Under the pieces are notes generated by a model. It did no database searches. It had not been told where the DNA came from and saw nothing but the letters and a program-made list of their open reading frames with translations. Shown in pieces: positions 1 to 63,130 of a stretch of DNA of 64,000 bases. A program made the position numbers and the translations under genes. Position 1 is the stretch's first letter; every line of letters begins with the position of its first letter. Source of the stretch: Orobanche coerulescens (taxonomy: Eukaryota > Streptophyta > Magnoliopsida > Lamiales > Orobanchaceae); the NCBI GenBank assembly GCA_033398695.1, contig CM065814.1, forward strand, positions 107,448,501-107,512,500, in the 5' to 3' direction.

Positions 1-285
1 TGATCGGCAGTGTGCCGCGGCCCGGACGAATGTGCCGCGGCAGTGACTCGGCAGTGTGCCGCGGCCCTGCCGGCATGTGCTGCGGCTCACGGTACAGAGG
101 GGTTGGCCAATAAGTCCCAACACGAGTGTGCGGCGGCCCGGACGAGTGTGCCGCGGCAGTGACTCGGCAGTGTGCCGCGGCCCTTCCGGCATGTGCCGCG
201 GCCCACAGTACAGGCTGCTCGGCCAAAAAACTGGACAATGTGTGTGCCGCGGCGCACACTCCTTGTGCCGCGGCCCACACTCCCC
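1..285. repeat. Array of GTGCCGCGGCAC-type palindromes
   Basis: TGTGCCGCGGC or its complement recurs about ten times, mixed with CCGGACGA, CAGTGACTCGG and CCACAGTACA spacers. The full palindrome is TGTGCCGCGGCACA. A longer block (near 20-105) is repeated near 135-215. By analogy with the other LTRs in the window this should be a U3 array upstream of a promoter that lies left of the window. Confidence 0.75.
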
Positions 286-487
286 TTGGGTTCTAAAATG
301 ATGAAAAATGATCGGGGAAGAGAATAAAAGCAATAGGAATCAATATTTGGGAAACAATAACACGAAATGGAAGTACGGAAACCCCAAAACGGTGGTTCCA
401 AGCCATGATTACAAGGGTTCGCCCAACAAAACACAATTTGAACAATGAAGAGATTTGAAATGACATGAATTCCAACCGGGTATTACA
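1..487 (-). mobile_element. LTR fragment (U3 end) inserted in the 3' LTR of Tekay-1
   Basis: This stretch has no match in the second Tekay-1 LTR (7187-9381), although that LTR resumes at about 488. It ends in TATTACA at 481-487, like the other Tekay-type LTRs here, which end in GGATATTACA. A motif near 375-400 (ACCCCAAAACGG..GGTTCC) resembles the U3 edge of Tekay-1. I infer the right end of a minus-strand LTR, solo or part of a full element, whose remainder is left of the window. The following CGTAC (488-492) is also present at the matching place in the intact LTR (near 7530), so it is the predicted 5-bp target duplication. Confidence 0.6.
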
Positions 488-703
488 CGTACTTTTCGGG
501 TGCTTGCTCGTCCGGATAATCATAACCTGAAATGCATAACAAGAATTTCCCCAAAATGGCTCCCCAAAGTGGTTAGCAATTACGCTAGTACAAGTAATCA
601 AGGCAAACCAATCGCTTACACATTTCATAGTACATGCACCAATATCAATTTCAAAAGCCAAAACCAGACATCTCTTTTCCGGAAACAAACAGTCAAACAA
701 TTT

Positions 704-862
704 GCCTTGGGAACAGGGTAATACCATAGATCTCGCCCGAGGCCTCTAAGGACCCTCACGAGCTGGCCATATCATAAAACAAAACACGCATATTCATCGC
801 TTTGGGAACATGGTAATACCATTGATCCCGCCCGAGGCCTCTAAGGACCCTCCCGAGCTGGC
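704..862. repeat. Two ~95-bp tandem units in Tekay-1 R/U5
   Basis: GGTAATACCATNGATC followed by GCCCGAGGCCTCTAAGGACC occurs at about 717 and 812, again in the other LTR at about 7758 and 7854. A similar GC-rich motif is tandemly repeated at the same relative place in the LARD LTRs. Confidence 0.75.
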
Positions 863-1538
863 TAGCTAAACAAACACATGAATCCAGGACTCAACCCTTT
901 GGACTCCCTCCGTGATCCCATCGGACCATCCCGAGGTGAGCAAATCAAACACAAAATACATTACCATTTCACGTTAAGCATAAAGGTTTCCCAAAAATAC
1001 TTACCTTGGATAATTGATGATGCAACAAACGGAAAGGAAGATCACCGACGAACGTTAGGAACCAACGGAATCAAACCTAACGATTTGAAGAATACAATCA
1101 CAACCAACTCTAGACGAATACGGAAATGGAATACACCCGAAAACCCGCCTACGATTCATGTATATTCGTATATAAACAACAACGAGGGCGGACCACAACC
1201 AAACCCTCTCGATTCCGTAAAAACCACGAAATATACCATGAATCCGTAGGGAAACTAAGAATACCATCAAGATTAATCATATTCATCATGAATCCACCAA
1301 CAAAACGGAATGAATCGGACGAAAATCCCAAAATCCCCAAATTATCCAAAAGTAGGGTTCTAAGAGATTTACCTTGGATTAGGATGAAATATTCATGATG
1401 ATGTTGTTATAATACACTAAGAACTCAAGGAAGATGTTGGATGAGATGATTGGAGGAAGAAATCGCCAATAAATCGCCCGGAATCGCCTAAGCCGCGGAG
1501 AGGAGGAAGAAATGAGAATTTGTGTTTATCTCGGTCAA

Positions 1539-1563
1539 CTCCCTGGTTTATATAGCCAGGGAG
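1539..1563 (-). promoter_or_regulatory. TATA box inside a perfect inverted repeat (Tekay-1 3' LTR)
   Basis: CTCCCTGG (1539-1546) and CCAGGGAG (1556-1563) are perfect 8-bp arms around TTTATATAG, which reads CTATATAAA on the minus strand. The palindrome array begins directly upstream in element orientation. The same structure is at 8581-8605. Confidence 0.7.
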
Positions 1564-1565
1564 TG

Positions 1566-7181: not shown

Positions 7182-8580
7182 TTTTCTGTAACACCCCGAG
7201 ATATTCGGAGTATATTACAGCGCCGTGGACTCCTACATGGGACCCACCAGGCTACAACAAGAAAACACCACTCGACTAACCATCTCGGTTAGCGAGGATA
7301 CACATTTAAATAATATGACATATAAAGATACGCCCGGAGCAACCGGCGAAATAAGCATCAACCGACAATGTAACAGTTTAAAGTAATACAATACGGAGTT
7401 TGAAATGAAAAGCCTAAGTACTCGCGAGTACAATCTACAAGTTTAAAACTGTGGGAACAACCATATCGAAATGGACAAAAGAAATAAGAAGACCCAAATG
7501 CACATTTCAACGACTCTGGCCAACATCCTCGTACAGTCCGGGTGCTCGCTCGTCCGGATAATCATAACCTGAAATCCATAACAAGAATTTCCCCAAAACG
7601 GGTCCCCAAAGGGGTTATAAATTACGCTAGTACAAGTAATCAAGGCAAACCAATCGCTTACACATGTCATAGTACATGCACCAATATCAATTTCAAAAGC
7701 CAAAACCAGACATGTCTTTTCCGGAAACAAACAGTCAAACAATTTGCCTTGGGAATAGGGTAACACCATAGATCCGGCCCGAGGCCTCTAAGGACCCTCC
7801 CGAGCTGTCCATATCATAAAACAAAACACGCACATGCATCGCCTTGGGAACAGGGTAATACCATTGATCCCGCCCGAGGCCTCTAAGGACCCTCCCGAGC
7901 TGGCTAGCTAAACAAACTCATGAATCCAGGACTCAACCCTTTGGACTCCCTCCGTGATCCCATCGGACCATCCCGAGGTGAGCAAATCACACACAAAATA
8001 CATTACCATTTCACGTTAAGCATAAAGGTTTCCCAAAAAAACTTGCCTTGGATAATTGATGACGCAACGAACGGAACGGAAGATCACCGACGAACGTTAG
8101 TAACCAACGGAATCAAACCTAACGATTTGAAGAATACATTCACAACCAACTCTAGACGAATACGGAAATGGAATACACCCGAAAACCCGCCTACGATTCA
8201 TGTATATTCGTATATAAACAACAACGAGGGCGGACCACAACCAAACCCTCTCGATTCCGTAAAAACCACGAAATATACCATGAATCCGTAGGGAAACTAA
8301 GAATACCATCAAGATTAATCATATTCATCATGAATCCACCAACAAAACGGAATGAATCGGACGAAAATCCCAAAATCCCCAAATTATCCAAAAGTAGGGT
8401 TCTAAGAGATTTACCTTGGATTAGGATGAAAGATTCGTGATGATGTTGTTATAATACACCAAGAACTCAAGGAAGATGTTGGATGAGATGATTGGAGGAA
8501 GAAATCGCCAAGAAATCGCCCGGAATCGCCTAAGCCGCGGAGAGGAGGAAGAAATGAGAATTTGTGTTTATCTCGGTCAA

Positions 8581-8605
8581 CTCCCTGGTTTATATAGCCA
8601 GGGAG
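8581..8605 (-). promoter_or_regulatory. TATA box inside a perfect inverted repeat (Tekay-1 5' LTR)
   Basis: CTCCCTGG (8581-8588), loop TTTATATAG, CCAGGGAG (8598-8605). This is the expected promoter for genomic RNA, facing left. Confidence 0.72.
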
Positions 8606-8607
8606 TG

Positions 8608-9137
8608 TTAGCGCGCGCTAATCCTCAAGGTTAGCATGCGCTAACGGGACAAAACTACAGGCCATACAGTTAACGTCCCAGTCCAGTAGCCAGATTTCTG
8701 GCCTTTAGCGTGCGCTACTCGAAACGTAGCGTGCGCTAATAACCTCTCGGTAGCGCGCGCTATCGACCAATAGCGTGCGCTACCTGGACATCAGCCGAGT
8801 CCAAAAGTTAACTGTCCAATACTCACCTGACCCGTTAGCGTGTGCTATCGTACAAGCGTAGCGTGCGCTACCTGGCACCTGACCGAGTTCAGTAGTAAAC
8901 TGTCCAGTACTGGACACTCACGCTAGCGCACGCTACCGGGTATCTCAGCGTGCGCTAGCCTCCCGACATTAGCGTGCGCTAGACTACGTAGCATACGCTA
9001 ATACGCCAGTCCAGAAGGCTGGAATTAGCAATGCCACTCCCAGGGCTTGCTCTCTAGTGCGCGCTACGAATCAGTCGTAGCGTGCGCTACTAAGGGACCC
9101 CCAGCATGCGCTATGCAGAAAAGATAGCGTGCGCTAG
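8608..9137. repeat. TAGCGYGCGCTA palindrome array in the 5' LTR U3
   Basis: Same array type as 1566-2052, including the units near 9050-9095 that the other LTR lacks. It lies immediately upstream of the TATA hairpin in transcription direction. Confidence 0.85.
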
Positions 9138-9381
9138 GTACGAAATATAAACGGTCCAAAACACCGGAATATGAACGAAACATCAAACGGAACATCTCAA
9201 GACGCGTCAAAACCTAGAATGGATCCACGGCAACCCCGAAACAGCAGTTCCGCACAACAATAACGAGAATCAGATCAATAGATGATGGGAAAGATACACT
9301 GTAAGGTATACGAGGGTCACTACGACCGAGAAATACACCGAAAAAGAAAAATACAAGGGAAAGAAAAATGCGGATATTACA

Positions 9382-11801: not shown

Positions 11802-11827
11802 TTTGTCTCTTATTTATAGGAGACAAA
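11802..11827 (-). promoter_or_regulatory. TATA box inside a perfect inverted repeat (Tat 3' LTR)
   Basis: TTTGTCTC (11802-11809) and GAGACAAA (11820-11827) are perfect 8-bp arms around TTATTTATAG, read CTATAAATAA on the minus strand. The layout is the same as in Tekay-1 but the sequence is unrelated. Confidence 0.65.
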
Positions 11828-12163: not shown

Positions 12164-12356
12164 AGACGATCGTATCCGGTTCGCACATCAAAGACGATGG
12201 CCAGATACCGAAAGACGATCGCTGGGTACCAAAAGACGATCGCCGTATGTACCGATCGCTGGGTGTTTGCCCAGAGTATGTTTTCTATGGTTGGATTCTC
12301 TGATCGTGATGCCGATCGCCATCGAGGCTCTGAACGTGATGCCGATCGCCATCGAG
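12164..12356. repeat. CGATCG palindrome array in the Tat U3
   Basis: CGATCG or GATCG occurs in AGACGATCGC, TACCGATCGC, and in a tandem pair of CGTGATGCCGATCGCCATCG separated by about 30 bp (12305-12356). It is upstream of the minus-strand TATA hairpin. Confidence 0.65.
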
Positions 12357-12524: not shown

Positions 12525-13454
12525 TGTAACATCCCCAGATCGAACCAGGAATATTACACGCCGCAGACCCTCTCCGCGAGGATCCACCAGGCTAGACATC
12601 AAAACAACACATTACATTACATACCGACGAATCAAAATAACGAACCAATACACCGATTTGGTCTTTCGACACAGACTTACAAATAAAAATACATAAACTC
12701 ATCCAGACTCATACCCACGCAAGGGTAAAATACTTGCAACAACGAACAATAAGACAGCGGAAAAGACAATACAATGGACTCCGACTAACTGAACCCAAAA
12801 CTGGCCTTCGTATGATTAGTATCATTCGTCTTTCATCATCCCTCGTACCGATCCTGTGTCTTGCTCCCGAAAACCTGCATGTACCTGGACACAATACAGA
12901 TATCCACCCCCCGATTACTCGGGGGTTAGCAAAACTCCACTGTTTCGCTAGTGCAAGTATAAAGTGCAAATACGAGCCATACACAACACATTTCGAGAAT
13001 ACAACGAAAGACTTCCCGAGGTATATTTAGTTAAAAATAGTTCAAGTCTTGAAAGTAGAAACGAAGTAAGTAAGCACTTTGAAAACACTTCCAAATCTCG
13101 GGAGTTTTGAAAACATTTGAAATTGAAAAGTTCTTAATTCCTCGAAAGTCATTTAGGGTCACAGCCCCAAAGTTCTTTTTCCAAAATGCAAATCCGTTAA
13201 CAAAACGTGGGGTCCACGACCCAACCATTACAGTAACAAAACACAGGGTCCACGACCCGATCATCCACTTCAATTCACTTACAAGTGCACATTACACATA
13301 ACACATTAATCTTATGCCATTCTAGCCAAGCACCGAGAGTCGATATATAATGTCTCTCGACCCTGAGCACAAAGCATTGTGATACTCCGAACAATATCAC
13401 AATTAATCATCAAAACATCAACATCAATATCACAGCAACCACACTTGGTAACCC

Positions 13455-13668
13455 GTGGCCGTACCCATTAGTATCGGCCCCCAGAGGCCCCGTCGGACCG
13501 TCCCTAGGTGGGAAACCACTTCCGCGGCCGTACCCATTAGTATCGGCCCCTAGAGGTCCCGTCGAACCGTCCCCAGGTGGAAGAGCATCAACACACGCAC
13601 CCAAGTCCACTTTCGTGGCCGTACCCATTAGTATCGGCCCCCAGAGGCCACATGCCATCCCCAGGTGG
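13455..13668. repeat. Three-unit repeat in LARD R/U5
   Basis: GGCCGTACCCATTAGTATCG followed by GGCCCC(C/T)AGAGG and a CC(G/A)TCCC(C/T)AGGTGG-type end occurs three times. It recurs at about 30294-30510 and 36040-36258. It sits downstream of the TATA in transcription direction, like the tandem motif of Tekay-1. Confidence 0.85.
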
Positions 13669-14805
13669 AAGAGTAACAACTCACAGATTATAAAACCACA
13701 ATTCTCAAAGGTCAAACACACAAAATATATATAGTCGAGGTACCTTGCTAGAATGGCCACATTATCTAACACGTTCTCACGACCCAGAACTATAAAAATT
13801 CACAAGGGAATACAAGATCTCAACATCACCGAACGACACAACCAATATCACACGAACTCTCATATTCATCCATAACCACGTGACTCCAAGCACATAATTT
13901 CACAAGAGAATTACACTGTACATTTACCGACGCCATAATCATACATAATTACGTCACACGAAAGTAAGGTGATCCTATACTCGTCACTAACACACATATC
14001 CAACTAAGCATATTAATTCCCGACACACACGTTTCACCTTTACGAAAAGCATGGTGGTAAATATACCGATTCTTTTGAAAAATGGTTATAAATATTTATT
14101 TAGCACATATCGACACCTAGCAACCATTATATCCACAAACCACGTAATGTATGGGCAAGATACTTGCCTCGAAACCACGATCGCAACAAGACGACGGATG
14201 AAATACGGTCGAATAGCCCCGAACCCCCGAACAATATCAAGAACGCAATAGCACCACGAGTACTACGAGAATAACACCACACGAATCATCAATCACCAAA
14301 CGGGATTCAACATCGGAAATCCTCGAGCACCTATAATCCTCTGGAAGGAACAACAAAAGATGATTACGACAAGAATCAAGGCAAAAATGACGGAAATCCC
14401 AACAAACTATCGAAAGGAACTCATTGGGGCATTTAATCGAACACTAATGTTCAATAATTCCCAAGAACACTCGAATCGTCAATCGAGTTAAACAAACTCG
14501 ATATATGGATATACAATCCGTAGAACACGATTAATAACATCATACTACACCAACCGATGTATCAAAATTGGACTAGAATCGAAATCAAGAACAAATTCTC
14601 CAAAAAGTCAACTTGAAGGAAAATCAAGAAATATACCTTGATCCGACGAAACACACGGATTAGATGTTGATATAATCAACAAGAATCTTCCAAAACGCCT
14701 TGGAATTGATTAGAATCGGCCAAGAACTCGATTTCCCGAGCCTCCCGTCGCCAGCCGCCGAAAAAGGAAGAAAATTGCGTAAAAAAATGAAGTCTGGCCG
14801 AGCCA

Positions 14806-14819
14806 GGCTATATATAGCC
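14806..14819 (-). promoter_or_regulatory. TATA box as a 14-bp perfect palindrome (LARD LTR 1)
   Basis: GGCTATATATAGCC, with GCCA/GGC continuing the symmetry imperfectly. Copies are at 31646-31659 and 37393-37406. The array of TTACGGCCGTAA lies upstream on the minus strand. Confidence 0.7.
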
Positions 14820-14824
14820 GGCAG

Positions 14825-15090
14825 GGTTACGGACGTAACCGGCAGTGCCTTACGGCCGTAACTCGGCCCCTTACGGCCGTACTCGGCAGGCCTTACGGCC
14901 GTAACCGGCATTCGTCAAAAATCGCCAAAGACTGCGGACACTTACGACCAGAATCGGCACACATTACGGCCAGAATCGCCTTCGCCAGAAGTCGCCAGCG
15001 CCATACGACCGCATTCGATCACGCCTTACGGCCGAATCGCACACGTTACGGCCGTAATCGCACCTTACGGCCAGAACTCGCCAAAGCCAG
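14825..15090. repeat. TTACGGCCGTAA palindrome array, LARD LTR 1 U3
   Basis: About ten units of TTACGGCCGTAA or variants at 20-40 bp spacing. Matching arrays: 31665-31930 (LTR 2) and 37410-37665 (LTR 3). Copies 1 and 3 have many units changed to TTACGGCCAGAATCG, copy 2 only a few. Confidence 0.85.
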
Positions 15091-15607
15091 CCTGCTCCGG
15101 CCGTGACTCGGCCGTGGCCACTCCGACGGCCCGGACGACCCCGAAACCCGAACCTGAGTAAAAACCGAAGATACGGTTACGAAGTAATCGCAAAGACGAA
15201 TCCAAGAGCTAATAGAACACACGATTCCGACCATCCGAGGTGTCGGAATTCGACAACGGAAGTAATTACCCCAAACTTTGGGAAATTACAAAAATGGCCC
15301 AAAATGTCCGAAATACACGATACATGATCGAAACACCGAACCAACGCTCGCAACATGAATAATAACATTAAATGAACTTACGAGAAACTCGAAACAACAG
15401 TTTCAGACGAGATTCGCAAGAATCGAACTCAAGTGCGGAAAAGTCGCTAAAAAGCTCGGAACTCAACAAAACGATACCGAAACGAACTCGGATGACAAAA
15501 AGTGCAGAATTAATCATTCTCGGAATGACGAAACGGTCATGAGCAAGTCGTCAAAACGGACTTCCGCCGAAAAAATAAAATTTACCGGAAATCGAAAATT
15601 GCGGATA

Positions 15608-15615
15608 TTACATTC
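15608..15615. repeat. 8-bp target duplication TTACATTC (left)
   Basis: Partner at 16363-16370. Eight bases is the hAT target-duplication length. Confidence 0.9.
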
Positions 15616-16362
15616 TAGGGGTGGGCATGGGACGGGATGGGTCGGGATTGGGCGAATCCCATCCCATCCCGAAAATAAATTACCGGGACGGGACGGGACG
15701 GGATTGTGTATTTTGAAATTCATCCCGCACGTCCCGATCCCGTTCGGGTTCGGGTCGGGATCGGGACGGGACGAGATATCCCGCACATTTATTGATCTTG
15801 ACAGAAACTGTGAAAAAACGAATGAGACAGCTATAAATTTTGGAATTATCAAATGAATGAGGTAGAAATTTAAAAAAAAAATCCAAACTAGTCATTCCAA
15901 AAAAAGTGACCCCCAATATCCATTAGAAACTTAAAAAACACACAGAACAAAATAGATAGTAACGTAAACACGCACAAAAGACAATAGATGAATAATCCAA
16001 CTGCATAGTGCATATTACATCAACATCAACACGTGAAGATAAAATTCAAATTGAAAGTGCAGAAAGCATCAACTTAAAAGTGAAAACTTAAAACTGAAAC
16101 TTTGATGTTTCATACATCATACATCAATTTAGGGTTTACATGATTAAATGATATATAAAAAAATTGATTATATTAAATATTATGGGACGGGACGGGATTG
16201 ATCGGGATGGTCCCGGTCCCATCCCGTCCCATTTGAATAGTAACAGAGCGGGACGGGACGGGATGGGATTGCCATTTTAAGAAACTATCCCGTCCCGTCC
16301 CGCTAGTTTTCGGGACGGGATTGGAACGGGATCGGAATTTCGGGTTCAAGTGCCCAACCCTA
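15616..16362. mobile_element. hAT-type MITE, 747 bp, rich in GGGACGGGAC
   Basis: Ends are TAGGGGTGGGCA and TGCCCAACCCTA, an imperfect terminal inverted repeat, flanked by the 8-bp duplication. Both subterminal regions are dense in GGGACGGGAC or its complement (15630-15780 and 16185-16325) around an AT-rich core. No transposase is encoded. It lies at the LTR 1/internal border and is absent from the matching place at 32455-32470, which instead carries a footprint. Confidence 0.9.
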
Positions 16363-16385
16363 TTACATTCTACCCTCCTTAAAAG

Positions 16386-18001: not shown

Positions 18002-20817
18002 TGTAGCACACCCGCACTAACTGCCTAACTTACACTATCTTATATCATATTAGTACTTATAAATTACGGTGAAATTTCGACAGAATTTCCCCTAAACTAG
18101 TACCTATCCCAAACCTGTGACATAAAACCAACACAAGTATCATACAGAGACATCTAGTCTCAATCCGAATCAAACTCATGACATCAATATCCCCGTAGCT
18201 ATAACTACAAGAGATTAGCAAACCACAAAACTTTGAGCTTCTCAAATTACTTATTTATTTTACATTACGATATTTAAACAACCTCACAGGTTAAACAAAC
18301 ATACTAAGTGAACTTAAAGTACCCATCACACCATCAACGACACTCGAACCTATGAGTACATTACTCAATACATATTTATAAAGTAAGGTTCACAAACAAG
18401 AACGAAAGTATGTTAAGCCCATGGTTAAGCCCGACAGGTCGTCATCCATATACGTCGACCCTCAGCAACAGTGGAACTCCAACTCATCCAGCGAGGGAAC
18501 ATACTCAAGCATCAGAATTACCTACAATGCATAAACTACGTGAGCTAAAGCCCAATAAGTAGAAATCATGCATGTTATGTATCATGTCTGATGCAACATA
18601 TGACATATGATTATCAATGAGAATCTCTCAAAATCATTTTCTTATCCTTGGGCCCGTTGAACCACGTACTAAGCACCGGAATGAACTCAACATCATATCA
18701 TATCATGAGGCATGCATCTACCATGCCAGACATATAAGGCATGCATCTACCACACCAAATATATCGTGAGAACACGCATCTACCATGTCTCACACATGAT
18801 ATAAGCACGCATCTACCGTGCTAAACATATCGTAAAAGCATGCATCTACCATGCCTCGGTGCTCTAGCAGCGGCCAACAAAACATTTTTCTTTTCTTTCT
18901 TTCCATGATTGTACCATGCATGCAGACACTAGTGAGTATCCTGTTATGCATGCATGTGAAGATGCTAATGGATGTTATGATCATGTAAGGTGCAACCAAA
19001 CACTTTAATCATACTACAGATCAATCATCCAATACAATACACTCTCAAGATATCATCAAGTTTACAAACAATACTATGTTTATGCATTGTAGTTGCAGAT
19101 GGATTTCTACTTACCTTGATCGGGTAATACCCTTACGTTTATACCAATAGGGGGTGGTTGGGATGATATATCTTCAGAACCTGTTTCAAGGAATGTGTTT
19201 CAAGGATTTACATACCACACGCAAGGTTTAACTCTCTTTATATCGAAAGGGTTTACCACTTCGCATAACCGGTGTTCTATGTACTATATGTCGGTTTATC
19301 GATGTACACCAGCCCATTAACCAATCAATTTTGGACTTATAATTCCTTAATAAATCTATTAGTCTCTGTTTATAAAGTTCATTCAACTCTCACAACTTAA
19401 AATTTCAAGGTTTTATAACAAACACTTGATTAAGAGAGTTTATCAAAGTCTTGTTATAATCAGATTTTGTTTTGCTTATAACCACTATAATATAAGTTTA
19501 ATTTGCACCATTTTTTGATATAATATCCCTAAGATATTTAAGAATAAGTATACTGAAACTCCTGACCCTGAAACATACGGATCAAGTAACATATACTATT
19601 AATTCCAAAAGGTGGCAGAATTGGTTCCTTTATCGCCTTAGTGAGTTTTAAGACTCATAAATCCATATTTAACACAAGGGTTTGCCATGGCTGAATTTTT
19701 AACATCATTATAACATGTATAAGAACATATACAAGCTCTCACACCTTCGAAATAGCTAAGAAACATAGCAAGAATAAGGAAGAAACAAAGGAAACTCACC
19801 TTGATTGTCAAAGGAATTGAGGTGTTGATGTTTTTGATGATTTCTTCTTGAATATTTGGTGATTTTTCGAAGTGTGAAGCTTCTTGATAATGTTCAGACT
19901 GTAAATGAGGGTTGAGGGTCGGATTTATCCATCAACCAAGTGTCTTAAGTCGGTTATGAAGGTGAAATGTCCAAAATACCCTCGAATGACTACTAGAGAC
20001 TAGGTTTGAAATAATTGATCGATTCAAGTAGTTATGATCCGGTTCTTGGAGTGTTTGAACCGGTTACTAGTAGATATTGACCTCATTTAGGGTATGGATG
20101 GTCTTTAAAATGGTTTAGTAGAAGTTTATGGTGTATTTTTATTGCTTAAACTCGATTACCACTGCGAACAATGTTGAAAATGCTAGTGAAGGACTTTATT
20201 GTAAAACTTCACAAATGAGACACTGTAGGTAAGAATGGAAGAAATCATTTATAAAAATATAATTAATATGATAAACTAAAAGATAAGTTCAATTCCTACC
20301 GCAGTTGGAACGAATGAGGTATAGACAGATCACAGTATTTTACAAACGTTATCAGATACAATCATAAATTGTATCCTATTAGGTATTGACAAGAGTCAAA
20401 GGCACTTGACGCGTGTTAGTTTATTGAATGATGGTTATCCACTTGAATCGTCAAGTTAAGGTGACCCACTACACGCGCCGACTAAAATCTCGAGGTAAGC
20501 TATTTAACCTCCGATAGACACGTCAGTGACACCTTTATAACTTCTAGGCTTACCACGTGTACTTAGAGTTTTATAAGATCTTTACACATATTTTATTTTC
20601 GTATTGGAAATACAATGAATAACATAACTTAGTCCCGTAACATATACCACGATTGTGTTTTAGACATGAGTTCAAATGTTTAGCACATTCCTATGTGTGA
20701 AATTAACTATAAGATCAACTGAACCATGAAACATCAAGTAATCCAAATAACACATAATTAACAAGTTATGCATGAATCATATTGACCAAGTGAGTAATGT
20801 TAGGCTCGGGTATCACA
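18002..20817 (-). repeat. Tekay-4 3' LTR
   Basis: TGTAGCACACCCGCAC to CGGGTATCACA. It contains the 5-unit GCATGCATCTACCATGC array. No CpG palindrome array of the kind in the other LTRs is visible, nor did I find a clear TATA hairpin. Confidence 0.92.
18704..18858. repeat. Five ~35-bp tandem units with GCATGCATCTACCATGC
   Basis: Each unit is a small hairpin (GCATG...CATGC, or CACG/CGTG variants with matching changes such as GCACGCATCTACCGTGC), spaced by ATATCGTRARA-type DNA. The paired change of CAT/ATG to CAC/GTG on both arms keeps the pairing. The copy in the 5' LTR is 26220-26372. Confidence 0.85.
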
Positions 20818-21342
20818 TCCTCCCCTCCTGATAAAAATTTCGTCCCCGAAATTTAACTTCCTGAAAAGATCAGGGTATTTAGCCCTCATTTCATCTTCTC
20901 TCTCCCAAGTGGCTTCTTCAACGAGTTGATTTCTCCACAACACTTTGACTAGTGGCACCTCTTTATTTCTGAGTTTCTTTACTTCTCTTAGTAAGATTTG
21001 TACCGGTATCTCCTCGTAACTCAAATCTGCCTCCATCTCAACTGGTTCATTCTTGAGAATGTGGGATGGATTCGCAATGTATTTTCTTAGTAGAGAAATG
21101 TGAAATACATTGTGTATCTGAGACATTGATGATGGCAACTCTAGTCGATAAGCCACTTCACCAACCCGCTCAGTAATAGGAAATGGCCCAATGTATCTTG
21201 GACTCAGTTTTCCTTTCTTACCAAATCTCATTATTACCTTCATTGGAGAAACCTTCAGGAATACACGATCACCCATGGCAAATTCCACTGCTCTCCTTCT
21301 GGTATCTGCATAACTCTTTTTGCGCTTTGAGCCGTTTCTCAT
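20800..21342 (-). pseudogene. Tekay-4 integrase C-terminus and chromodomain
   Basis: The 180-residue stretch carries the INT C-terminal GKLSPRYIGPFPITERVGEV block and a chromodomain (VPLVKVLWRNQLVEEATWE, then YPDLF). The frame continues through the hairpin (coding NFGDEIF) and PPT, and ends 17 bp inside the 3' LTR, as often in Tekay elements. A frame change near 21345-21490 separates it from the integrase core. Confidence 0.88.
20818..20854 (-). other. PPT and hairpin, Tekay-4
   Basis: The minus strand reads ATCAGGAGGGGAGGA before the LTR. The hairpin AAATTTCG, TCCC, CGAAATTT (20835-20854) here lies within the pol reading frame. Confidence 0.82.
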
Positions 21343-38388: not shown

Positions 38389-38395
38389 TATAAAA
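38389..38395 (+). promoter_or_regulatory. TATA box of the Tat opposite-strand gene
   Basis: TATAAAA in CCGCCTATAAAAGGGGC, about 155 bp before the ATG. The leader that follows is CT-rich (TTCTTCATTTTCACTCTTC) and contains AG|GTAAGA near 38500, which could be a 5'UTR splice donor. Confidence 0.65.
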
Positions 38396-38544
38396 GGGGC
38401 TAGGGCTTCTTCATTTTCACTCTTCACGCATCCTTTCATTTTAGCCGAAACTCTGCAGAAATTTCCGGAGCTTCTTGTGCCGATCGTCTTCCTTTCTTTA
38501 GGTAAGAAAAAATCAATCTTCTTTCTCCCTTTACTTTTCATAAT

Positions 38545-41107: not shown

Positions 41108-41197
41108 GAGATATCTTTATTTTCCTTGTAACTTGTAATTTTCTGCTTTCCCTTTGTATTGCCTTCGGGCTTTGTAATGTACGAAATCTTTGTTATG

Positions 41198-47066: not shown

Positions 47067-47079
47067 ACGCGCGCGCGCG

Positions 47080-47157
<78 letters not shown>
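47067..47157. repeat. Compound microsatellite (CG)n(CA)n(TA)n(GA)n
   Basis: Four dinucleotide blocks in a row. Adjacent blocks share one base of the unit. Confidence 0.95.
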
Positions 47158-51528: not shown

Positions 51529-52581
51529 TGATGGACAAATTATATACTCGCAAGTGTACGAATCGCTTTTATAGGAAGCGGCAAGTAACTCCGAGGTCGA
51601 TCTCTCGAGGAATTGGAAACGGTTTAAAGTTCGATAATGTTCGGCAAATAGTCGAATGAACAAAAGTAAAATAAATTAAAATACATCATTGGTTGATAGG
51701 TTTACAATTAATAACGCATAAAAATAAACAAAGCGATAATAATACCAAATTAATTGTCGGATAATTGAGAGATTACAATAATGAGATTGATATGGGAATT
51801 TAGAGTCACCGACACACACATAATCAATTATTAGTTCCGAAACTCAAATAAATAAGGTTTGGAATTATCGATTGCTCACGATTAAAAGAAATCCGTTTGA
51901 TGGCAGTAATTCTAAAAATCACGATTGTTCTTATCGAAAATAAGAGATACTCTTTTGATGGGGATGAATCCCTAACTAACAATCAATTAACCGACTACTT
52001 TTGATGGAGTAAATCGTTAAAAGATCGCGCGAAAAAGCTCGAGAACATTTACAATCACTTCTACCGGACCGTTTGATGACGAAGACCGATAAAAATCCTC
52101 TATTTGAATAATAATTACAACAATGAAATAGGTTTGATGATCTAAATCAAAAATTCTAAAGCGAAGAACGAACAAGAGGAACAATCCCAAACTTTACCTG
52201 GAAAATCAATAGAAACTAATAATCGATAGCATGTGTGTGGCTCAATCTAAAAATCCATATGAAAAGATTAGCTACACATGATTATTTCAACAACAATAAT
52301 GGAAATTGAAGAACAAAACATGGTAGAAACTTCCCTTGAAAATGCCGGAATTGAATTCCCGATGAAGATTTGATGTTCTTCCTTCAAAAACTCATGACAA
52401 TTGATACAAGGATATGTAATATCTCACAAATGTATTTTTCACTCCAAGAACATACAAGGAAGATGATGAAACAATCTCACATTTTCCTCATTTTTTGGTG
52501 TTTTCTCCCTCAATCTTGTGTTTTCACCCCAAAATATCTCCCAAAAGATTAGAATATCTCACCTAGGTTCTCCACTCCTTA

Positions 52582-52588
52582 TTTTATA
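52582..52588 (-). promoter_or_regulatory. TATA box of the Athila 3' LTR
   Basis: The minus strand reads GGCTATAAAATAAGG; the palindrome array (52655-52910) begins about 70 bp upstream in that direction. The 5' LTR copy is 62393-62399. No hairpin surrounds it, unlike the Tekay-1, LARD and Tat promoters. Confidence 0.7.
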
Positions 52589-52654
52589 GCCAAAAGATCA
52601 AGAAAAGGACTCAAAATTGTGCAAAAATATCAAAGAAAATGACTTGCACCGAAA

Positions 52655-52910
52655 AGTGACACGGCCCGTGTCCTGGGACACGGCCGTGTCGTACTACCCT
52701 AGAAAGAAGAAAATCCCATTGTCCACGGACCCGGCCGTGTCCCATGACACGGCCGTGTTGTACTGTGCAAGAAGTGCAAAGTAGGCAGATCGTGACTCGG
52801 CCGTGTCTCAAAAGACACGGTCGTGTTGTACTGCACAGGAAAAGGGCTTTTTAACTATAAAGAGACCCGGCCGTGTTATATGGCACGGCCGAGTTGCCTG
52901 GTGCGGCCCG
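52655..52910. repeat. GACACGGCCGTGTC palindrome array, Athila 3' LTR
   Basis: Paired half-units such as GACACGGCCGTGTC and TGACACGGCCGTGTTGTACT, with GTACTG/CAGTAC spacers, six to eight in all. The 5' LTR copy is 62465-62715. Confidence 0.85.
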
Positions 52911-53320
52911 AGTTGTTTTCTTCTGTTTTGATTCCGGTTTTTGGTCTTCTTCGGCTTGATCCCTCGTTCTTGTATCAATACACCTCAGATTTAAGCATAT
53001 GATATACCGTTTCGAAGCTAATTTCACGAGGAATTTATATCAAAGGAGAACACATCTCAATTCGGAGTGGTGATTCTGGAATTTAGAAGATTCAACCGAT
53101 ACTGCTTCAATCTTTTGTTGTTTTAGGCCCCGTTTTAGCTCTTGATCGTCATAAACTCCAATATTAGCTATGAAAACGCATATTTCACCACAATCTTCAC
53201 TTGGTTACCTATAAATTAAAAACACAACATACCACGCATAAAAGAGAACAAAAATACTAGGAAGCAAACAAAAACAGGACTAGATAGAACAGAATGAGTT
53301 GATCAACAATCGACTCATCA

Positions 53321-54883: not shown

Positions 54884-56243
54884 TTACTGGTGGGGCGGAG
54901 GGAAGTGGCCTTGCTGGACATGCCACTCGTGCATTTGTCTCACAAGAGACAATATCTCGCGTCGCTCCCATCTAGCCTCCTCTCGGAAGGCTACGAACTC
55001 CTCCCTTAATGATGGGCGCGAGGGGGCACGTCCAATTTCGGCCCACCTTGACGTCTCAGGCTGATCTCTCGTGCTTTCTTCTTCTTCTTCGCTCTCTTCT
55101 TCTTCCTCTTCATCCGGGCCTCTTTCATAAGCCTTCTCCTCTTCCATCCTCTCTGCTCTATCTTCATCCATAATGCGCCTAGGTCGAACATTTCGGTCGA
55201 GAGGGCTGTGACCCGGTGGAGCCAATCCAGCTGATATCCGTGCTCGTCGATGTGCCTCCGTAGCCATTTGCAGATTTCCCATGTCCCGAATATTATTTAT
55301 GGTTGTCAAAGGCGGATTCGGGAGAAGGAAGTGGTCGTTGTCGGTCTGGAGGAAGACTGTGCGCTGTTCATAGTCCAGGATGTTCATTACCTTCATCACG
55401 GAGATCGAGAGTAGCTTATTTCCTAGAAGGGGAGTCCTATGAGCTAAGGAAATCTCGAAGTGAAGTGCGATAGGGGTAATAAACCCCCTATCCATATCTC
55501 CCCCTTTGGCTTTGTCGCGACATCCTCAAAATGTTCTGCTACCATAGCCCCGGTTGCTGGAATTGAGTTTTCGAGCATGTGAGTCAGGATGTATAAATCC
55601 CGCAGTGAAATGGGCCCGTTTTTTTTCGTCCATATATAGTATTCACAACCACCTTGTGTAGATATCTGAGTATTGGATTGCGAATGTTTGATCCTTTAGC
55701 CGATCTTGCAATATAATATGGCGCCTCATTCCCCGGGTATTCCACCATGGCTCTCCAATAGGTTTCACAAGCGAACCGGTTTATCGGGTAATGGCCGTTG
55801 TGTTTTGCATGAAAAATTTCTTCCAGCTAGACGATGGTTAGTCTCTCTTCATTTTTGTTGAGCCGGAATGTCATTTCGGTTGGTTCTCGAGTCACCGGAT
55901 CTCTTCTGACAGTAAGAGTGCTGAGAAACTCCATCGTCAGACACCTATAAGTCGGCCATTGTTGCGTCATCATCCACGCCTAATTCACTCTTTCAAGGAA
56001 TTTCATCATGTCTTCTCTTATCCCCATTGCGTTCATGCATTCGTCATCGGGCCACCTCGTAGGGAGCATTTTTTTCTGACCCAGCATTTCCCACCTTTCA
56101 TATTGTGTTTCAGGGAGATCGATTCCATAAGAATCCGGAGTTTCCACAGCCCTTTGAATAGCCATTCTTGCCGGCTGCACTTGTTCCCCGCCGTTCCTAC
56201 CCCTTCCGCGCTGAGAATTTTTTCGTCCTCGTCCTCGTGCCAT
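54884..56243 (-). pseudogene. Athila env-position ORF (ATHILA ORF-1-like)
   Basis: Likely start at 56243 (MARGRGRKNSQRGRGRN), directly after a splice acceptor. The ATHILA ORF-1 pattern follows (PTRWPDDE, TYRCLTMEFLSTL, FRLNKNEERLTIV, NGHYPINRFACETYWRAM, ISLRDLYILTHMLEN, GGFITPIALHFEI-type). The C-terminal part has an acidic run and REEFVAFREEARWERREILS. Breaks: stops at 55980-55982 and 55827-55829, and a frame change near 55495 in a run of Gs. No signal peptide or membrane helix is visible, so calling it an envelope rests on position only. The Pfam family PF03078 is my best match; function unknown. Confidence 0.75.
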
Positions 56244-56246
56244 TTT

Positions 56247-56837: not shown

Positions 56838-56844
56838 TTATATA
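56838..56844 (-). promoter_or_regulatory. Internal TATA box upstream of the env-position ORF
   Basis: The minus strand reads GGACCTATATAAGGAGAGC, about 600 bp before the ATG and 250 bp before the intron donor. It is followed by a CT-rich leader (TCCATCTTCTCC) and preceded by a palindrome array as in the LTR. Confidence 0.7.
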
Positions 56845-56851
56845 GGTCCGA

Positions 56852-57170
56852 CCGACACGGCCGTGTTGTATATGACACGGTCGTGTCGTACTGTTCAGAA
56901 TAGGCAAAACCCACTATCTAACCGACTCGGCCGTGTCCTGTGACATGGTCGTGTCATACTATCCTACAAAACAAACTTTCACTGTATTGACACCCGGCCA
57001 TGTCCTATGACACGGTCGTGTCGTATTGTACTGAAAAATAAATTTCTCACTGTTTTGAGGCTCGGCCGTGTCCTGCGACACGGTTGTGTCATATTAGCCC
57101 AGAATATCAAATTCCTCCTTTTTTGAGACTCGGCCGTGTCAGAGATAACTCGGTCGTGTCCAACCTGCCC
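56852..57170. repeat. Internal GACACGGCCGTGTC array, Athila
   Basis: Five pairs of diverged units (GACACGGCCGTGTT, GACACGGTCGTGTC, GGCCGTGTCCTGTGACATGG and others) at about 60-70 bp spacing. Same unit as the LTR U3 array, but the flanks are not an LTR copy: the TATA context and leader differ. Confidence 0.82.
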
Positions 57171-59771: not shown

Positions 59772-59775
59772 TTGA

Positions 59776-61224
59776 TCAATGAAAGGAAGGGGAAAATGAT
59801 CCTTTTTTTGTTACGGCATTTAATTTCCGGTAATCAATGCACATTCTCCAACCAGTTACTGTTCTAGTGGGCACCAATTCATTTTTATCATTACGAACCA
59901 CCGTTATTCCAGATTTCTTAGGCACTACATGCACAGGACTCACCCACTTACTGTCGGATATCGGGTAGATGACTCCGACATCTAGCAATTTCAAAACTTC
60001 TTTTTTCACAACTTCCTGCATGTTCGGATTCAAACGCCTTTGAGGTTGCCTAACCGGTTTAACATTTTCCTCAAGAATTATTTTATGCATGCACCTAACA
60101 GGACTTATTCCCTTGATATCGGAAATACTCCACCCAATTGCTTCATTTAACTTAGTCAGAACTTCTACTAATTTGTTTTCTTGCAAGGGAGTTAATTCGG
60201 AAGAGACAATTGAAGGGTAAGTGTCACTTTTGCCTAAGAAAACATATTTAAGATGTGCCGGAAGTTCTTTCAATTCAAGTTGGGGTGGGGTGATTTCAAC
60301 GGGCTCCTCAAATTTTAATCCCAATGGTATCTTAAAACCGTCAACTTCATCAATTGTTTCGGAATTATCTAACAATGCAACATATTCTTCAATTTCTAGA
60401 TTATTCAGCCCCATATCATGCTCAACGGTTAGAGCATCATGCAACGTGTCCCCTACATCATCATGCAAATATGTATCATTAACCAAAGAATCAATGCAAT
60501 CAATAAAATTCACATCATGGGCAGCATAAATATGAGAAGGGATAGGAGATGAACCGAATACGTTGATTTCCACGGTTTCGCCCAAGACGGTCATGGTGAC
60601 CTTTCCTTCATCAACATCGATGATTGTTTTTGTTGTACGCATGAATGGCCGTCCTAGAAGTATCGTCCCTTCATTTTCGCTTGTTCCGAAATCGCTCATC
60701 TCCAAGATAACAAAATCGGCCGGAATCACCAACTTGTCCACTTGCACTAATAGGTCTTCAATGACTCCCTTGGGGTATTTCACCGACCTATCCGCCATTT
60801 GAAGAGTCCTTCTTGTTGGTTTGATTCCCCCGAGTCCAAGCCTCAAATAGGTCGAGTATGGCATGAGATTCACACTTGCTCCCAAATCTAACATCCCACG
60901 AGCAACTTTCTTATCTCCCATAGTGATGTCGATCATAAAACTTCCGGGATCGCCTTTCTTTTGACCCCTTGCTTCTACCTCGTAGAGCATCACTTTGTCG
61001 TTCCCATTGTATCTTCTTTTGTTGGAGGTCAACTCTTTGAAAAATTTTGTATAAGCGGGAATGTTCTTCACAACATCCAAAAGAGGTAAGTTGACATGAA
61101 CTTTTGAAAGCATGTCATAGATTTCGGAAAATTTCTCATCTTGCTTTACTTTTCTAATCCTTTGAACTTCGTCTATGGGCGGAAGAATCGGGTTACCCAA
61201 CGATCTCCTTCCAAGCATAAACAA
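59776..61224 (-). pseudogene. Athila gag remnant, protease and start of RT
   Basis: 482 residues. The start at 61224 (MFMLGRRSLGNP) lies only about 90 bp after the PBS, so the capsid and zinc-knuckle parts of gag are gone. The first ~90 residues resemble the gag-protease linker (YDMLSKVHVNLPLLDVVKNI, YTKFFKELTSNKRR). The protease follows (MLDLGASVNLMP, then ILLGRPFMRTTKTIIDV), then the RT leader (RRLNPNMQEVVKKEVLKLL, WVSPVHVVPKKSG, WRMCIDYRKLN). The frame is lost at the 7-A run 59803-59809. The Met at 61224 may be fortuitous. Confidence 0.85.
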
Positions 61225-61314
61225 AGGAAGTAAGAGCGAATTTTATCAAAATAAAATTGATCAAGAATAACAATTCAACTACTATTAGAACAAGATTAAA
61301 AATTAAACGCCAAT

Positions 61315-61332
61315 TCCCCAACAACGGCGCCA
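61315..61332 (-). other. Primer binding site, tRNA-Asp type (Athila)
   Basis: The minus strand reads TGGCGCCGTTGTTGGGGA, six bases after the LTR end, close to the TGGCGCCGTTGCCGGGGA PBS usual in Athila elements. Confidence 0.85.
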
Positions 61333-61338
61333 AAAACT

Positions 61339-63130
61339 TGATGGACAAATTATATACTCACAAGTGTACGAATCGCTTTTATAGGAAGCAGCAAGTAACT
61401 CCGAGGTCGATCTCTCGAGGAATTGGAAACGGTTTAAAGTTCGATAATGTTCGGCAAATAGTCGAATGAACAAAAGTAAAATAAATTAAAATACATCATT
61501 GGTTGATAGGTTTACAATTAATAACGCATAAAAATAAACAAAGCGATAATAACACCAAATTAATTGTCGGATAATTGAGAGATTACAATAATAAGATTGA
61601 TATGGGAATTTAGAGTCACCGACACACACGTAATCAATTATTAGTTCCGAAACTCAAATAAATAAGGTTTGGAATTATCGATTGCTCACGATTAAAAGAA
61701 ATCCGTTTGATGGCGGTAATCCTAAAAATCACGATTGTTCTTATCGAAAATAAGAGATACTCTTTTGATGGGGATGAATCCCTAACTAACAATCAATTAA
61801 CCGACTACTTTTGATGGGGTAAATTGTTAAAAGATCGCGCGAAAAAGCTCGAGAACATTTACAATCACTTCTACCGGACTGTTTGATGACGAAGACCGAT
61901 AAAAATCCTCTATTTGAATAATAATTACAACAATGAAATAGGTTTGATGATCTAAATCAAAAGTTCTAAAGCGAAGAACGAACAAGAGGAACAATCCCAA
62001 ACTTTACCCGGAAAATCAATAGAAACTAATAATCCATAGCATGTGTGTGGCTCAATCTAAAAACCCATATGAAAGGATTAGCTACACATGCTTATTTCAA
62101 CAACAATAATGGAAATTGAAGAACAAAACATGGTAGAAACTTCCCTTGAAAATGCCGGAATTGAATTCCCGATGAAGATTTGATGTTCTTCCTTCAAAAA
62201 CTCATGACAATTGATACAAGGAAATGTAATATCTCACAAATGTATTTTTCACTCCAAGAACATACAAGGAAGATGATGAAACAATCTCACTTTTCCCTCA
62301 CTTTTTGGTGTTTTCTCCCTCAATCTTGTGTTTTTCACCCCAAAATATCTCCCACAAGATTAGAATATCTCACCTGGGGTCTCCACACCTTATTTTATAG
62401 CCAAAAGATCAAGAAAAGGGCTCAAAGTTGTGCAAAAATATCAAAGAAAATGACTTGCACCGAAAAGTGACACGCCCGTGTCCTGGGACACGGCCGTGTC
62501 GTACTACCCTAGAAAGAAGAAAATCCCATTGTCCACGGACCCGGCCGTGTCCCATGACACGGCCGTGTTGTACTGTGCAGGAAGTGCAAAGTAGGCAGAT
62601 CGTGACTCGGCCGTGTCTCAAAAGACACGGTCGTGTTGTACTGCACAGGAAAAGGGCTTTTTAACTATAAAGAGACCCGGCCGTGTTATATGGCACGGCC
62701 GAGTTGCCTGGTGCGACCCGAGTTGTTTTCTTCTGTTTTGATTCCGGTTTTTGGTCTTCTTCGGCTTGATCCCTCGTTCTTGTATCAATACACCTCGGAT
62801 TTAATCATATGATATACCGTTTCGAAGCTAATTTCACGATGAATTTATATCAAAGGAGAACACATCTCAATTCGGAGTGGTGATTCTGGAATTTAGAAGA
62901 TTTGACCGATACTGCTTCAATCTTTTGTCGTTTGAGGCCCCGTTTTAGCTCTTGATCGTCATAAACTCCAATATTAGCTATGAAAATGCATATTTCACCA
63001 CAATCTTCGCTCGGTTAACTATAAATTAAAAACACAACATACCACGCATAAAAGAGAACAAAAATACTAGAAAGCAAACAAAAACACGACTAGGTAGAAC
63101 AGAATGAGTTGATCAACAATCAACTCATCA
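61339..63130 (-). repeat. Athila 5' LTR
   Basis: 1792 bp, same ends as the 3' LTR. TATA at 62393-62399, palindrome array 62465-62715. Confidence 0.94.

Follow-up and report, generated by a model that had tools for sequence, protein, structure and literature searches.

Elements and box arrays in the window

The stretch of DNA analysed (the window) comprises 64,000 nt of the Orobanche coerulescens genome (assembly GCA_033398695.1, contig CM065814.1, positions 107,448,501–107,512,500, forward strand). The pol domains identified in it are of the Ty3/gypsy type (RVP_2, RT_RNaseH, and a Tf2-1-like SH3). The lineage names Tekay and Athila were taken from a preliminary description of this DNA and are presumed to apply from primer-binding sites (PBS), LTR ends, and general knowledge. 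That description had reported, in several LTR families, arrays of family-specific palindromes (here called boxes) directly upstream of TATA. Box numbers given below for the LTR arrays were obtained at ≤3 mismatches.

A partial Tekay-type LTR (LTR1; 1–487, minus strand), nested in the 3′ LTR of Tekay-1 and with its TATA outside the window, carries 10 boxes around GCCGCGGC at about 11–276, with gaps of 21, 51, 21, 24, 20, 51, 21, 24, and 20 bp. In Tekay-1 (minus strand), arrays of 14 and 16 boxes occupy 1567–2048 of the 3′ LTR (488–2292; TATA at 1549–1554) and 8609–9136 of the 5′ LTR (about 7184–9381; TATA at 8591–8596), respectively, and in each the last box centre lies 19 bp from TATA. The motif words named earlier are clustered, but a motif search of the window found no exact copy of TGTGCCGCGGCACA and two exact copies of TAGCGCGCGCTA in each Tekay-1 LTR, the remaining copies having at least one mismatch. 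Both Tekay-1 arrays also have an extra TATAWA word 15 bp past their far end, which counts against the rule for TATA position described below.

Three LARD LTRs, all on the minus strand, contain arrays of TTACGGCCGTAA with 10, 10, and 9 boxes: LTR A (12526–15612) at 14827–15110, LTR B (29363–32459) at 31665–31955, and LTR C (35128–38190) at 37414–37695. Each array is followed by a palindromic TATA (GGCTATATATAGCC in LTR A) at 14806–14819, 31646–31659, and 37393–37406, respectively, and the distance from the last box centre to the TATA start is 17 bp in all three. A secondary array of four boxes of the TAACGCGCGCTAA type, spaced by about 22–24 bp, was found in the LARD internal region (28375–28455, minus strand), with a second copy at 34140–34220; neither had been noticed previously. 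The LTR starts of LARD and LTR1 are of the Tekay type and the PBS of LARD is of the tRNA-Met type, and thus neither is unrelated to Tekay-1; the three represent one lineage (Tekay). The LTR of Tekay-4 (25517–28333, minus strand; second copy at 18002–20818) has no array.

Athila (minus strand) contains arrays of GACACGGCCGTGTC in both LTRs, namely 7 boxes at 52660–52895 in the 3′ LTR (51531–53320) and 8 boxes at 62469–62705 in the 5′ LTR (61341–63130). These arrays sit away from TATA, which is found at about 52584–52589 and 62395–62400, respectively. The last box centre detected in the 3′ LTR is 95 bp from it, and that in the 5′ LTR 76 bp. An internal array of 10 boxes (56854–57160, gaps of 18–20 and 49–50 bp), located between the integrase and the 3′ LTR and absent from the preliminary description, is locked to its own TATA (56839–56844), 17 bp from the last box centre. 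Downstream of this TATA lies an ORF (54887–55525, minus strand) for which six homologues were found, all of them Orobanche proteins; three of the six contain PF03078, which we take to be ATHILA ORF-1.

The CGATCG cluster of Tat (12167–12348, minus strand) is a counter-example, lying about 350 bp upstream of the inferred LTR TATA (near 11814–11819). This minus-strand LTR begins at about 12379; its boundaries were inferred from the polypurine tract and TG start, and no second Tat LTR was found in the window. A TATAAAT within the cluster was ruled out as the TATA of the array because it lies on the other strand.

Near-palindromes in the densest 300 bp of each stretch were counted and compared with 100 dinucleotide shuffles per stretch. 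The count was reached by none of the shuffles for LTR1, both Tekay-1 LTRs, LARD LTRs B and C, both Athila LTRs, and the Athila internal region, and by 4 of 100 for LARD LTR A. No excess was detected in the two Tekay-4 LTRs (55 and 58 of 100 shuffles reach their counts), which bears out the proposed use of Tekay-4 as an array-free contrast, or in an old LARD-like LTR (94 of 100), and the clustering in Tat was not significant (26 of 100). Box identity was 82–89% in the five window stretches measured, partly by construction because boxes were found by pattern.

The earlier observation is therefore confirmed in part. Clusters are present in Tekay-1, LARD, Athila, and LTR1 but not significantly in Tat; arrays precede TATA wherever TATA falls inside the window, but directly so in the LTRs of Tekay-1 and LARD and not in those of Athila or Tat. 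Likewise, a promoter form shared by unrelated families holds for Tekay and Athila, but Tekay-1, LARD, and LTR1 count once and Tat does not share it.

Box pitch and step to TATA

Short gaps between boxes measure 23–24 bp in 71 of 102 cases, with a pitch mode of 23 bp in Tekay and 18–24 bp elsewhere (18–20 bp plus a 48–51-bp class in Athila). TATA starts 22–24 bp past the start of the last box in 12 of the 14 arrays with TATA assigned. The box-plus-TATA pattern for the Tekay box TAGCGCACGCTA has 66,310 matches in the genome, some of which are one promoter matched twice; among the first 100 matches listed, the step is 22–24 bp in 40 of 48 distinct spacers, compared with 1 for the reversed pattern. 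These listed matches are all on contig C1, and the rule was first noticed on C14. For the Athila-type box ACACGGCCGTGT, the first 100 of 482 matches were listed, and 29 of their 34 distinct spacers show this step; the reversed pattern gives 3. In 26 sampled Tekay-class clusters, TATA was located 16–19 bp (13 clusters), 45–47 bp (4), or 23–27 bp (1) from the last box centre, and 8 had no TATA at 16–47 bp.

Genome-wide abundance and maintenance of the boxes

The arrays are real and occur across the genome. In 11 of 20 blind 10-kb genome samples, arrays with 6 or more copies were present; mirror words and 20 shuffles yielded none. TAGCGCGCGCTA occurs 148,354 times in the genome (4 for the reversed word) and TTACGGCCGTAA 184,551 times (83 for the reversed word). 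Five samples taken near contig ends contained 2 exact boxes in total.

Box identity is 0.79–0.98, again partly by construction, and the identity of box flanks is within 0.02 of the composition expectation in 11 of 14 arrays; the arrays are thus not simple tandem copies. In the other three (L020, L021, and LARD), the similarity of the flanks exceeds expectation, and some window spacers are more alike than in their shuffles, so that array growth is partly recent duplication. In three clear 5′/3′ LTR pairs (L009, Tekay-1, and Athila), 10 of 508 box sites and 18 of 897 spacer sites have changed (2.0% each), and boxes are therefore not mutationally cold. Together with flanks at composition identity, this equal change after insertion means that the boxes are maintained through selection acting on replicating copies.

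Of 19 Tekay-class clusters examined with loose patterns, 15 are preceded by a Tekay-type LTR start or followed by a PBS of the tRNA-Met type, and descent explains motif likeness within Tekay. It is very unlikely, however, that one ancestral promoter module spread among families by descent or exchange, its TATA spacing inherited without function: pitch and TATA distance, which drift would erase, are kept although the flanks are no more alike, or hardly more alike, than composition predicts, and Athila has a different box and pitch yet places TATA at a similar step in its internal array and in most listed genome matches.

Box form and RNA folding

The boxes had been described as palindromes with a self-complementary CpG core, but proved to be oriented near-palindromes. 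Tekay-class boxes keep the half-sites TWRCG and CGYWA, and their centre in sense orientation is CA, TA, or CG and seldom TG (CA 92 versus TG 4). This common orientation could be inherited within Tekay, which counts against a functional reading of it.

The central CpG of Tekay boxes is the one not kept. GC content is higher in the arrays (0.49–0.68 versus 0.34–0.43), whereas the observed/expected CpG ratio is about equal in arrays (0.96–1.42) and the remainder of the same stretches (0.86–1.37). Although box motifs contain CpG and Sirevirus boxes are described as CpG islands in the text available (PMC2829016), these values leave the earlier option of symmetric CpG methylation unsupported, and it is highly improbable that methylation targets or CpG islands set the box form.

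Folded as RNA, three arrays are much more stable than their shuffles (z = −6.67, −6.73, and −7.35). A U3 array transcribed at the 3′ end of element RNA could give rise to silencing small RNAs or RNA structure, its promoter position being incidental, and small RNAs concentrate on LTR palindrome clusters in maize Sireviruses (Bousios 2016, as cited in PMC5311732 and PMC10760457). According to these citing texts, the maize hotspots resemble the present arrays as palindrome-rich LTR cis-regions with strong predicted RNA structure, but belong to another superfamily. The half-sites of Tekay-class boxes match each other in 108 of 187 boxes (74.3 expected if independent), which is not decisive because families differ in half-site. 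A hairpin, however, requires neither a fixed TATA step nor a common orientation of the asymmetric centre, and the mismatched-arm box TAACGTACGTAA (36, strands pooled) is commoner than TTACGTACGTAA (13). The hairpin option raised earlier thus gains strong folding but does not predict orientation or step; we consider it unlikely as the explanation, and folding may be a side effect.

Comparison with known systems

The closest known system is the repeated-motif (RM) boxes of Sireviruses (Ty1/copia). As far as the available text of Bousios et al. (2010) goes, these are high-copy dyad-symmetric CpG boxes, commonly >85% identical, located in the upstream LTR half shortly before TATA, with further clusters upstream of the env gene; they are marked by at least 8 copies per LTR, a CGG-CCG core, an array start 200–400 bp into the LTR, and a CpG island, and are called Sirevirus-specific within that study's Ty1/copia set (PMC2829016). 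The present elements are Ty3/gypsy (Tekay and Athila). Their boxes show similar copy numbers and identity, the Athila 3′ LTR being one box short of 8, and CGGCCG is found in LARD and Athila but not in the Tekay-1 (GCGCRCGC) and TTACGTACGTAA arrays. First box centres lie 217 (LTR1) and 250–251 bp (Tekay-1) into the LTR, within the Sirevirus range, and later in Athila (432) and LARD (512–544). GC content is raised in the arrays, but the observed/expected CpG ratio does not exceed that of the remainder. The Athila internal array and TATA, preceding the ORF with PF03078-containing homologues, may correspond to the cluster before env if that ORF is env-like. Added here are the 23-bp pitch, TATA in array register, the oriented centre, the TWRCG half-site class, and the flank and LTR-pair evidence. 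Enhancer repeats of the Tnt1/Tto1 type are likewise repeated U3 cis elements driving expression, but have few copies and are not known to form a palindrome array in TATA register.

VANDAL transposons carry short, family-specific, fast-evolving motifs in tandem in noncoding DNA, which resemble the present boxes; they are, however, DNA transposons, and they encode the protein that binds these motifs, VANC (PMC5735166). An element-encoded protein could similarly bind the boxes, lifting silencing or regulating transcription, and would serve the non-autonomous LARDs with Tekay-like boxes in trans. VANC motifs, however, are described as same-orientation repeats, with a palindrome or TATA rule not mentioned in the text available (PMC5735166), and a Pfam scan of 20 window ORFs detected, apart from gag zinc knuckles and the zinc-binding domains of integrase, no DNA-binding regulator. 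Such a protein seems quite unlikely.

Proposed function of the arrays

The arrays probably serve as the proximal promoter in the U3 region of Tekay-lineage elements and, as a separate case, in that of Athila, with boxes as predicted dimer-protein sites and TATA in step. Each box would be an inverted half-site pair for a dimeric DNA-binding protein, most likely a host transcription factor; of the options offered earlier, a host factor appears to be the best remaining. Successive boxes would lie about two helical turns apart, and TATA would occupy the position after the last of them. The dimer on that last box would thereby keep a constant distance and helical face relative to TBP/TFIID and would aid its loading. 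Points against this promoter reading include the distances of 76 and 95 bp in the Athila LTRs, the lack of an array in Tekay-4 and Tat, the sampled Tekay-class clusters with TATA elsewhere or not found, and the 2 exact boxes in the samples near contig ends. The earlier interpretation is thus supported in part, and the common form is tighter than first described.

Because boxes differ between families, no single protein could read all of them. More tentatively, and with the balance somewhat against it, unrelated plant LTR lineages may share one core-promoter code, in which the last dimer site, whatever the box, begins 22–24 bp upstream of TATA and shares its helical face. A shared machinery partner, or one transcription-factor family of changing specificity, would then have to be contacted; boxes could change to follow or escape the host, whereas the step could not.

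A form known from Sireviruses thereby becomes a measurable rule, extended to Ty3/gypsy and tied to the core promoter. Given the 66,310 matches of one box-plus-TATA pattern, any box-reading factor would meet a very large site pool, which matters for understanding what activates retrotransposons, how the host recognizes them, and how a 3.6-Gb genome originates.

LTR elements and arrays in the window

Self-comparison of the window, 64 kb out of a 3.65-Gb genome, placed the matched LTRs of Tekay-1 at 488-2293 and 7530-9381, with the 5' LTR extending to the PBS near 7181, and those of Athila at 51531-53320 and 61341-63130. All window promoters treated here are minus-strand. The LARD forms a tandem (LTR-internal-LTR-internal-LTR; 12526-38190) flanked on each side by the 5 bases GGGCT. 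Tekay-4 is nested within it at an internal/LTR boundary, with TAACG at both sides, and the LARD span also contains ~750 bp of other sequence (15614-16363).

In the preliminary description, unrelated LTR families were said to carry arrays of family-specific CpG palindromes (hereafter boxes) directly upstream of TATA. The boxes considered here include TAGCGCACGCTA in Tekay elements, TTACGGCCGTAA, and GACACGGCCGTGTC. A motif search of the window bore out the clustering of the named motifs, and the densest 300 bp exceeded all 100 dinucleotide shuffles in LTR1 (a partial Tekay-type LTR at 1-487), in both Tekay-1 LTRs, and in both Athila LTRs, as well as in the Athila internal region, which that description had not included. 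Two of the three LARD LTRs exceeded all 100 shuffles and the third did not. By the same measure, Tekay-4 was not beyond the shuffles and stands as the array-free contrast proposed; an old LARD-like LTR was not beyond them either. Tat, listed as a further array family, was ruled out by the shuffle test and the reading of its LTR orientation: its cluster is not beyond the shuffles, and TATA lies ~350 bp off in the inferred orientation. The word 'unrelated' is apt for Tekay and Athila, whose reverse transcriptase (RT) parts are 36% identical, but not among Tekay-1, LARD, and LTR1; a TGTAATA-type LTR start is common to these three, and the PBS type is also common to LARD and Tekay-1. Viral contigs searched with two RT proteins yielded no relative.

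CpG observed/expected values are >1 in the window LTRs other than Tekay-4 and LTR1, which is unusual for silenced plant transposons and suggests recent activity or weak CpG loss. CpG depletion or islands were rejected as an account of the arrays, which do not differ from the rest of the LTR in this respect. Perfect palindromes of 10 bp or more were in excess (122 vs 64 in shuffles), but this count is inflated, 30 of the 122 coming from one simple repeat at 47068-47129. Splice-donor-like words (CAAGGTA-like, minus-strand sense) were seen by eye 3' of several TATA boxes, at ~1370, 14636, 19808, and 56590, a hint that several families may splice their leaders. On the plus strand, 38191-41110 is a gene region that runs antisense to Tat pol, with a TATA (CCTATAAAAGGGG) at ~38390 and plus-strand ORFs, five of which were scanned without a Pfam match, an arrangement like that of the antisense ORFs in Tat/Retand elements.

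Recurrence of the arrays in the genome

Twenty 10-kb pieces of contig C14, spaced regularly 5 Mb apart, were taken blind and searched without the motifs of the preliminary description. Arrays were scored where 400 bp held several near-copies of one palindromic 10-mer: there were at least four copies in 13 of the 20 pieces and at least six in 11, compared with 5 and 0 pieces, respectively, for a mirror-word control and none when the whole set was shuffled 20 times. The words in two of the 13 (L008, 5 copies; L024, 14 copies) seem to be of another kind. Among 12-mers, the most frequent in the sample were TTACGTACGTAA (12), TCGGATATCCGA (7), and TAGCGCGCGCTA (6). The Tekay box class TWRCGNNCGYWA, derived from these pieces and the window, has 187 exact occurrences in 250 kb vs 2 for the reversed pattern, and 26 clusters vs 0; five later samples near contig ends (L025-L029) contained 2 exact boxes vs 0 in the control and one weak cluster. 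Across the genome, TAGCGCGCGCTA occurs 148,354 times vs 4 for its control word, and TTACGGCCGTAA 184,551 times vs 83. The shuffle tests and these reversed-pattern and control-word counts rule out a chance origin of the arrays. With loose patterns, 15 of 19 clusters showed an upstream LTR start of the Tekay type or a downstream PBS of the tRNA-Met type, and the pol parts in three pieces (L009, L017, and L018) are 57-90% identical to that of Tekay-1.

A different array, of CCGGATATCCGG, lies next to AACACCCCTAG at L024:2819-3267 and at 15614-15800 of the window, where the insertion at 15614 starts CTAGGGGTGGGCA. The arrangement resembles hAT-type ends, and the CCGGATATCCGG arrays probably belong to the subterminal repeats of a DNA transposon.

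Pitch and TATA step

Inside groups, most distances between neighbouring box centres of the window are 18-24 bp (in LARD also 26-32 bp); between groups they are 42-74 bp. Tekay-class spacing was measured in 14 arrays, namely 12 of the 26 sample clusters and two window arrays, after leaving out five near-duplicates (second copies in L009, L019, L020, and L021, plus L023), L021:3911 (TATA 23-27 bp from the box centre), L023:5084 (54 bp), and seven clusters without TATA. Short gaps were 23 or 24 bp in 71 of 102 cases, and the distance from the last box start to the TATA start was 22-24 bp in 12 of the 14 arrays and 53 bp in the remaining two (binomial P = 7e-14, conditional on TATA being present and rough, as related arrays such as L013/L022 and L017/Tekay-1 remain). 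The TATA step thus equals the pitch, i.e. TATA occupies the slot of the next box. Over all 26 clusters, the distance from the last box centre to TATA is 16-19 bp in 13, 45-47 bp in four (L020 and L021), and 23-27 bp in one; the other eight, several of them small secondary arrays, have no TATA at 16-47 bp. Four-box arrays with a pitch of ~22-24 bp and no TATA at the usual step were noted at 28375-28455 and 34140-34220, both in LARD and ~900 bp past the PBS, and at L013:3137, L017:6093, L022:8141, and L023:5084.

The pattern TAGCGCACGCTA followed by 0-30 bases and TATAWA has 66,310 genome matches vs 1 for the reversed pattern. This number exceeds that of promoters, since 7 of the first 100 matches listed reuse a box already counted, with the TATA word shifted, and in 10 another box intervenes. 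These 100 all come from contig C1, whereas the TATA-step rule was first seen on C14, and they include 48 distinct spacers without an intervening box: 3 at 13-15 bp, 2 at 21 bp, 40 at 22-24 bp, and 3 at 25 bp, so that 45 of 48 fall within 21-25 bp. Copies of the perfect word TAGCGCGCGCTA on C1 are separated by 45-47 bp, twice the pitch, in 10 of the 19 gaps that do not exceed 200 bp; for TTACGGCCGTAA, 20 of 50 gaps measure 19-23 bp. Among four C1 loci picked by TAGCGCGCGCTA, TATA lies at 24 bp in L001 and, as TATAGA judged by eye, at 23 bp in L003/L004 (the same array), with none near in L002. A second arrangement, in which the box starts 13-15 bp before TATA (TAGCGCACGCTAACTATATA; e.g. C1 6525615 and 7313008), accounts for 10 of the 100 listed matches, often ~300 bp away from a normally spaced one.

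A TATA-anchored profile of 1,036 TATAWA sites was noisy, with 24 CG-containing near-palindromes at -20 to -14 vs 15.6 expected. In a recurrent-word test, 24 of 105 words were near-palindromic upstream vs 13 of 97 downstream, the latter mostly the same arrays reached on the other strand via symmetric TATATA, for which reason this comparison was set aside.

Box anatomy and maintenance

Box edges are sharp, with 82-89% identity inside and 27-40% in the adjoining 8 bases per side. The inside value owes something to the choice of boxes by motif, whereas the loss in the flanks does not. Flank identity is within 0.02 of that expected from composition in 11 of 14 arrays, which makes simple tandem repeats an insufficient account; it is above in L020 (0.33 vs 0.28), L021 (0.33 vs 0.26), and LARD (0.38 vs 0.30). 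Spacer identity exceeds shuffled values for short spacers in LARD (0.63 vs 0.49) and LTR1 (0.55 vs 0.44) and for long spacers in the Athila internal array (0.64 vs 0.53).

In the clear 5'/3' LTR pairs of single elements, on which the mutation claim rests, boxes and spacers have changed equally since insertion (10/508 and 18/897, 2.0% each), at 0.025 and 0.022 changes per site in L009, 0.023 and 0.021 in Tekay-1, and 0 and 0.012 in Athila. The other five comparisons vary both ways: 0.061 and 0.026 (L021), 0.091 and 0.087 (L020), 0 and 0.096 (L019), and, for LARD copies that are not 5'/3' pairs, 0.060 and 0.106, and 0.130 and 0.157. All eight sum to 50/1,063 for boxes and 112/1,931 for spacers. 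Because change is equal after insertion and yet boxes are kept and spacers lost in the lineage, these comparisons indicate that the boxes are maintained by purifying selection on copies that replicate. Such lineage-level retention is the main argument, drawn from sequence, for the boxes being functional.

Of the 'palindrome', the half-sites are kept, but perfect symmetry is not the selected feature, the centre being mostly an oriented pyrimidine-purine step. Read in sense, Tekay boxes have CA as their central dinucleotide in 92 cases, TA in 90, CG in 13, TG in 4, and others in 4 (17 arrays, near-duplicates included and L021:3911 left out). Since CpG decay alone would give equal CA and TG, the imbalance points to a preferred direction. 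The arms match in 108 of 187 boxes vs 74.3 expected from independent draws, because families share one half-site.

Athila as a second lineage

The Athila box has the core ACACGGCCGTGT and, unlike that of Tekay, pitches of 18-20 and 48-51 bp; its LTR arrays lie 76 and 95 bp from TATA. For the internal array (56854-57160, minus strand), which has a separate TATA, the distance from the last box centre is 17 bp. In the genome, ACACGGCCGTGT followed by 0-30 bases and TATAWA matches 482 times vs 3 in the control. TATA follows within 20 bases in 69 of the first 100 matches listed, and these 69 comprise 34 distinct spacers (one at 14 bp, one at 21 bp, 29 at 22-24 bp, two at 27 bp, and one at 30 bp); the spacers are alike (CAGTCGGTCAG and relatives), so that independent cases number fewer than 34, and the copies, being box matches, are putative Athila. 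Of the remaining 31 matches, 28 have, by a loose pattern, the end of another box-like sequence 9-11 bp ahead of TATA, and three have none. For the minus-strand ORF 54887-55525, downstream of the internal TATA, all six homologues found are from Orobanche, some being PF03078 proteins, and 56839-57160 is a possible internal Athila promoter driving this PF03078-related ORF.

Proposed mechanism and relation to known promoters

The fixed TATA step, the near two-turn pitch, the inverted half-sites, and the lineage-level selection fit a row of protein dimers, which would stand on the inverted half-sites ahead of the core promoter. Alternatively, the arrays might serve an RNA structure: if U3 is transcribed, array RNA folds strongly (z -6.67 to -7.35), and such palindrome regions attract small RNAs in maize according to PMC5311732 and PMC10760457. 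RNA structure, however, predicts neither box orientation nor TATA register, and would be a cost of the design rather than its purpose. A row of dimers remains the reading that we prefer.

The form itself resembles the Sirevirus RM boxes, which PMC2829016 describes as high-copy, highly identical boxes in the LTR with TATA downstream and with extra clusters before env, and terms Sirevirus-specific inside its Ty1/copia set. The present arrays agree in copy number, identity, and downstream TATA, and partly in LTR place, and the Athila internal array before the PF03078-related ORF may parallel the extra boxes upstream of env. Sireviruses are Ty1/copia, whereas the present elements are Ty3/gypsy and thus share the kind of promoter without being members. 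In the literature searched, including PMC3485330, PMC11302176, and PMC10794571, no Ty3/gypsy counterpart was found, and a full-text search with six box sequences gave no plant-retrotransposon title among the 10 listed of 12 matching papers; we have likewise not seen the pitch, the TATA register, the orientation, or the recurrence in a second lineage described in these sources.
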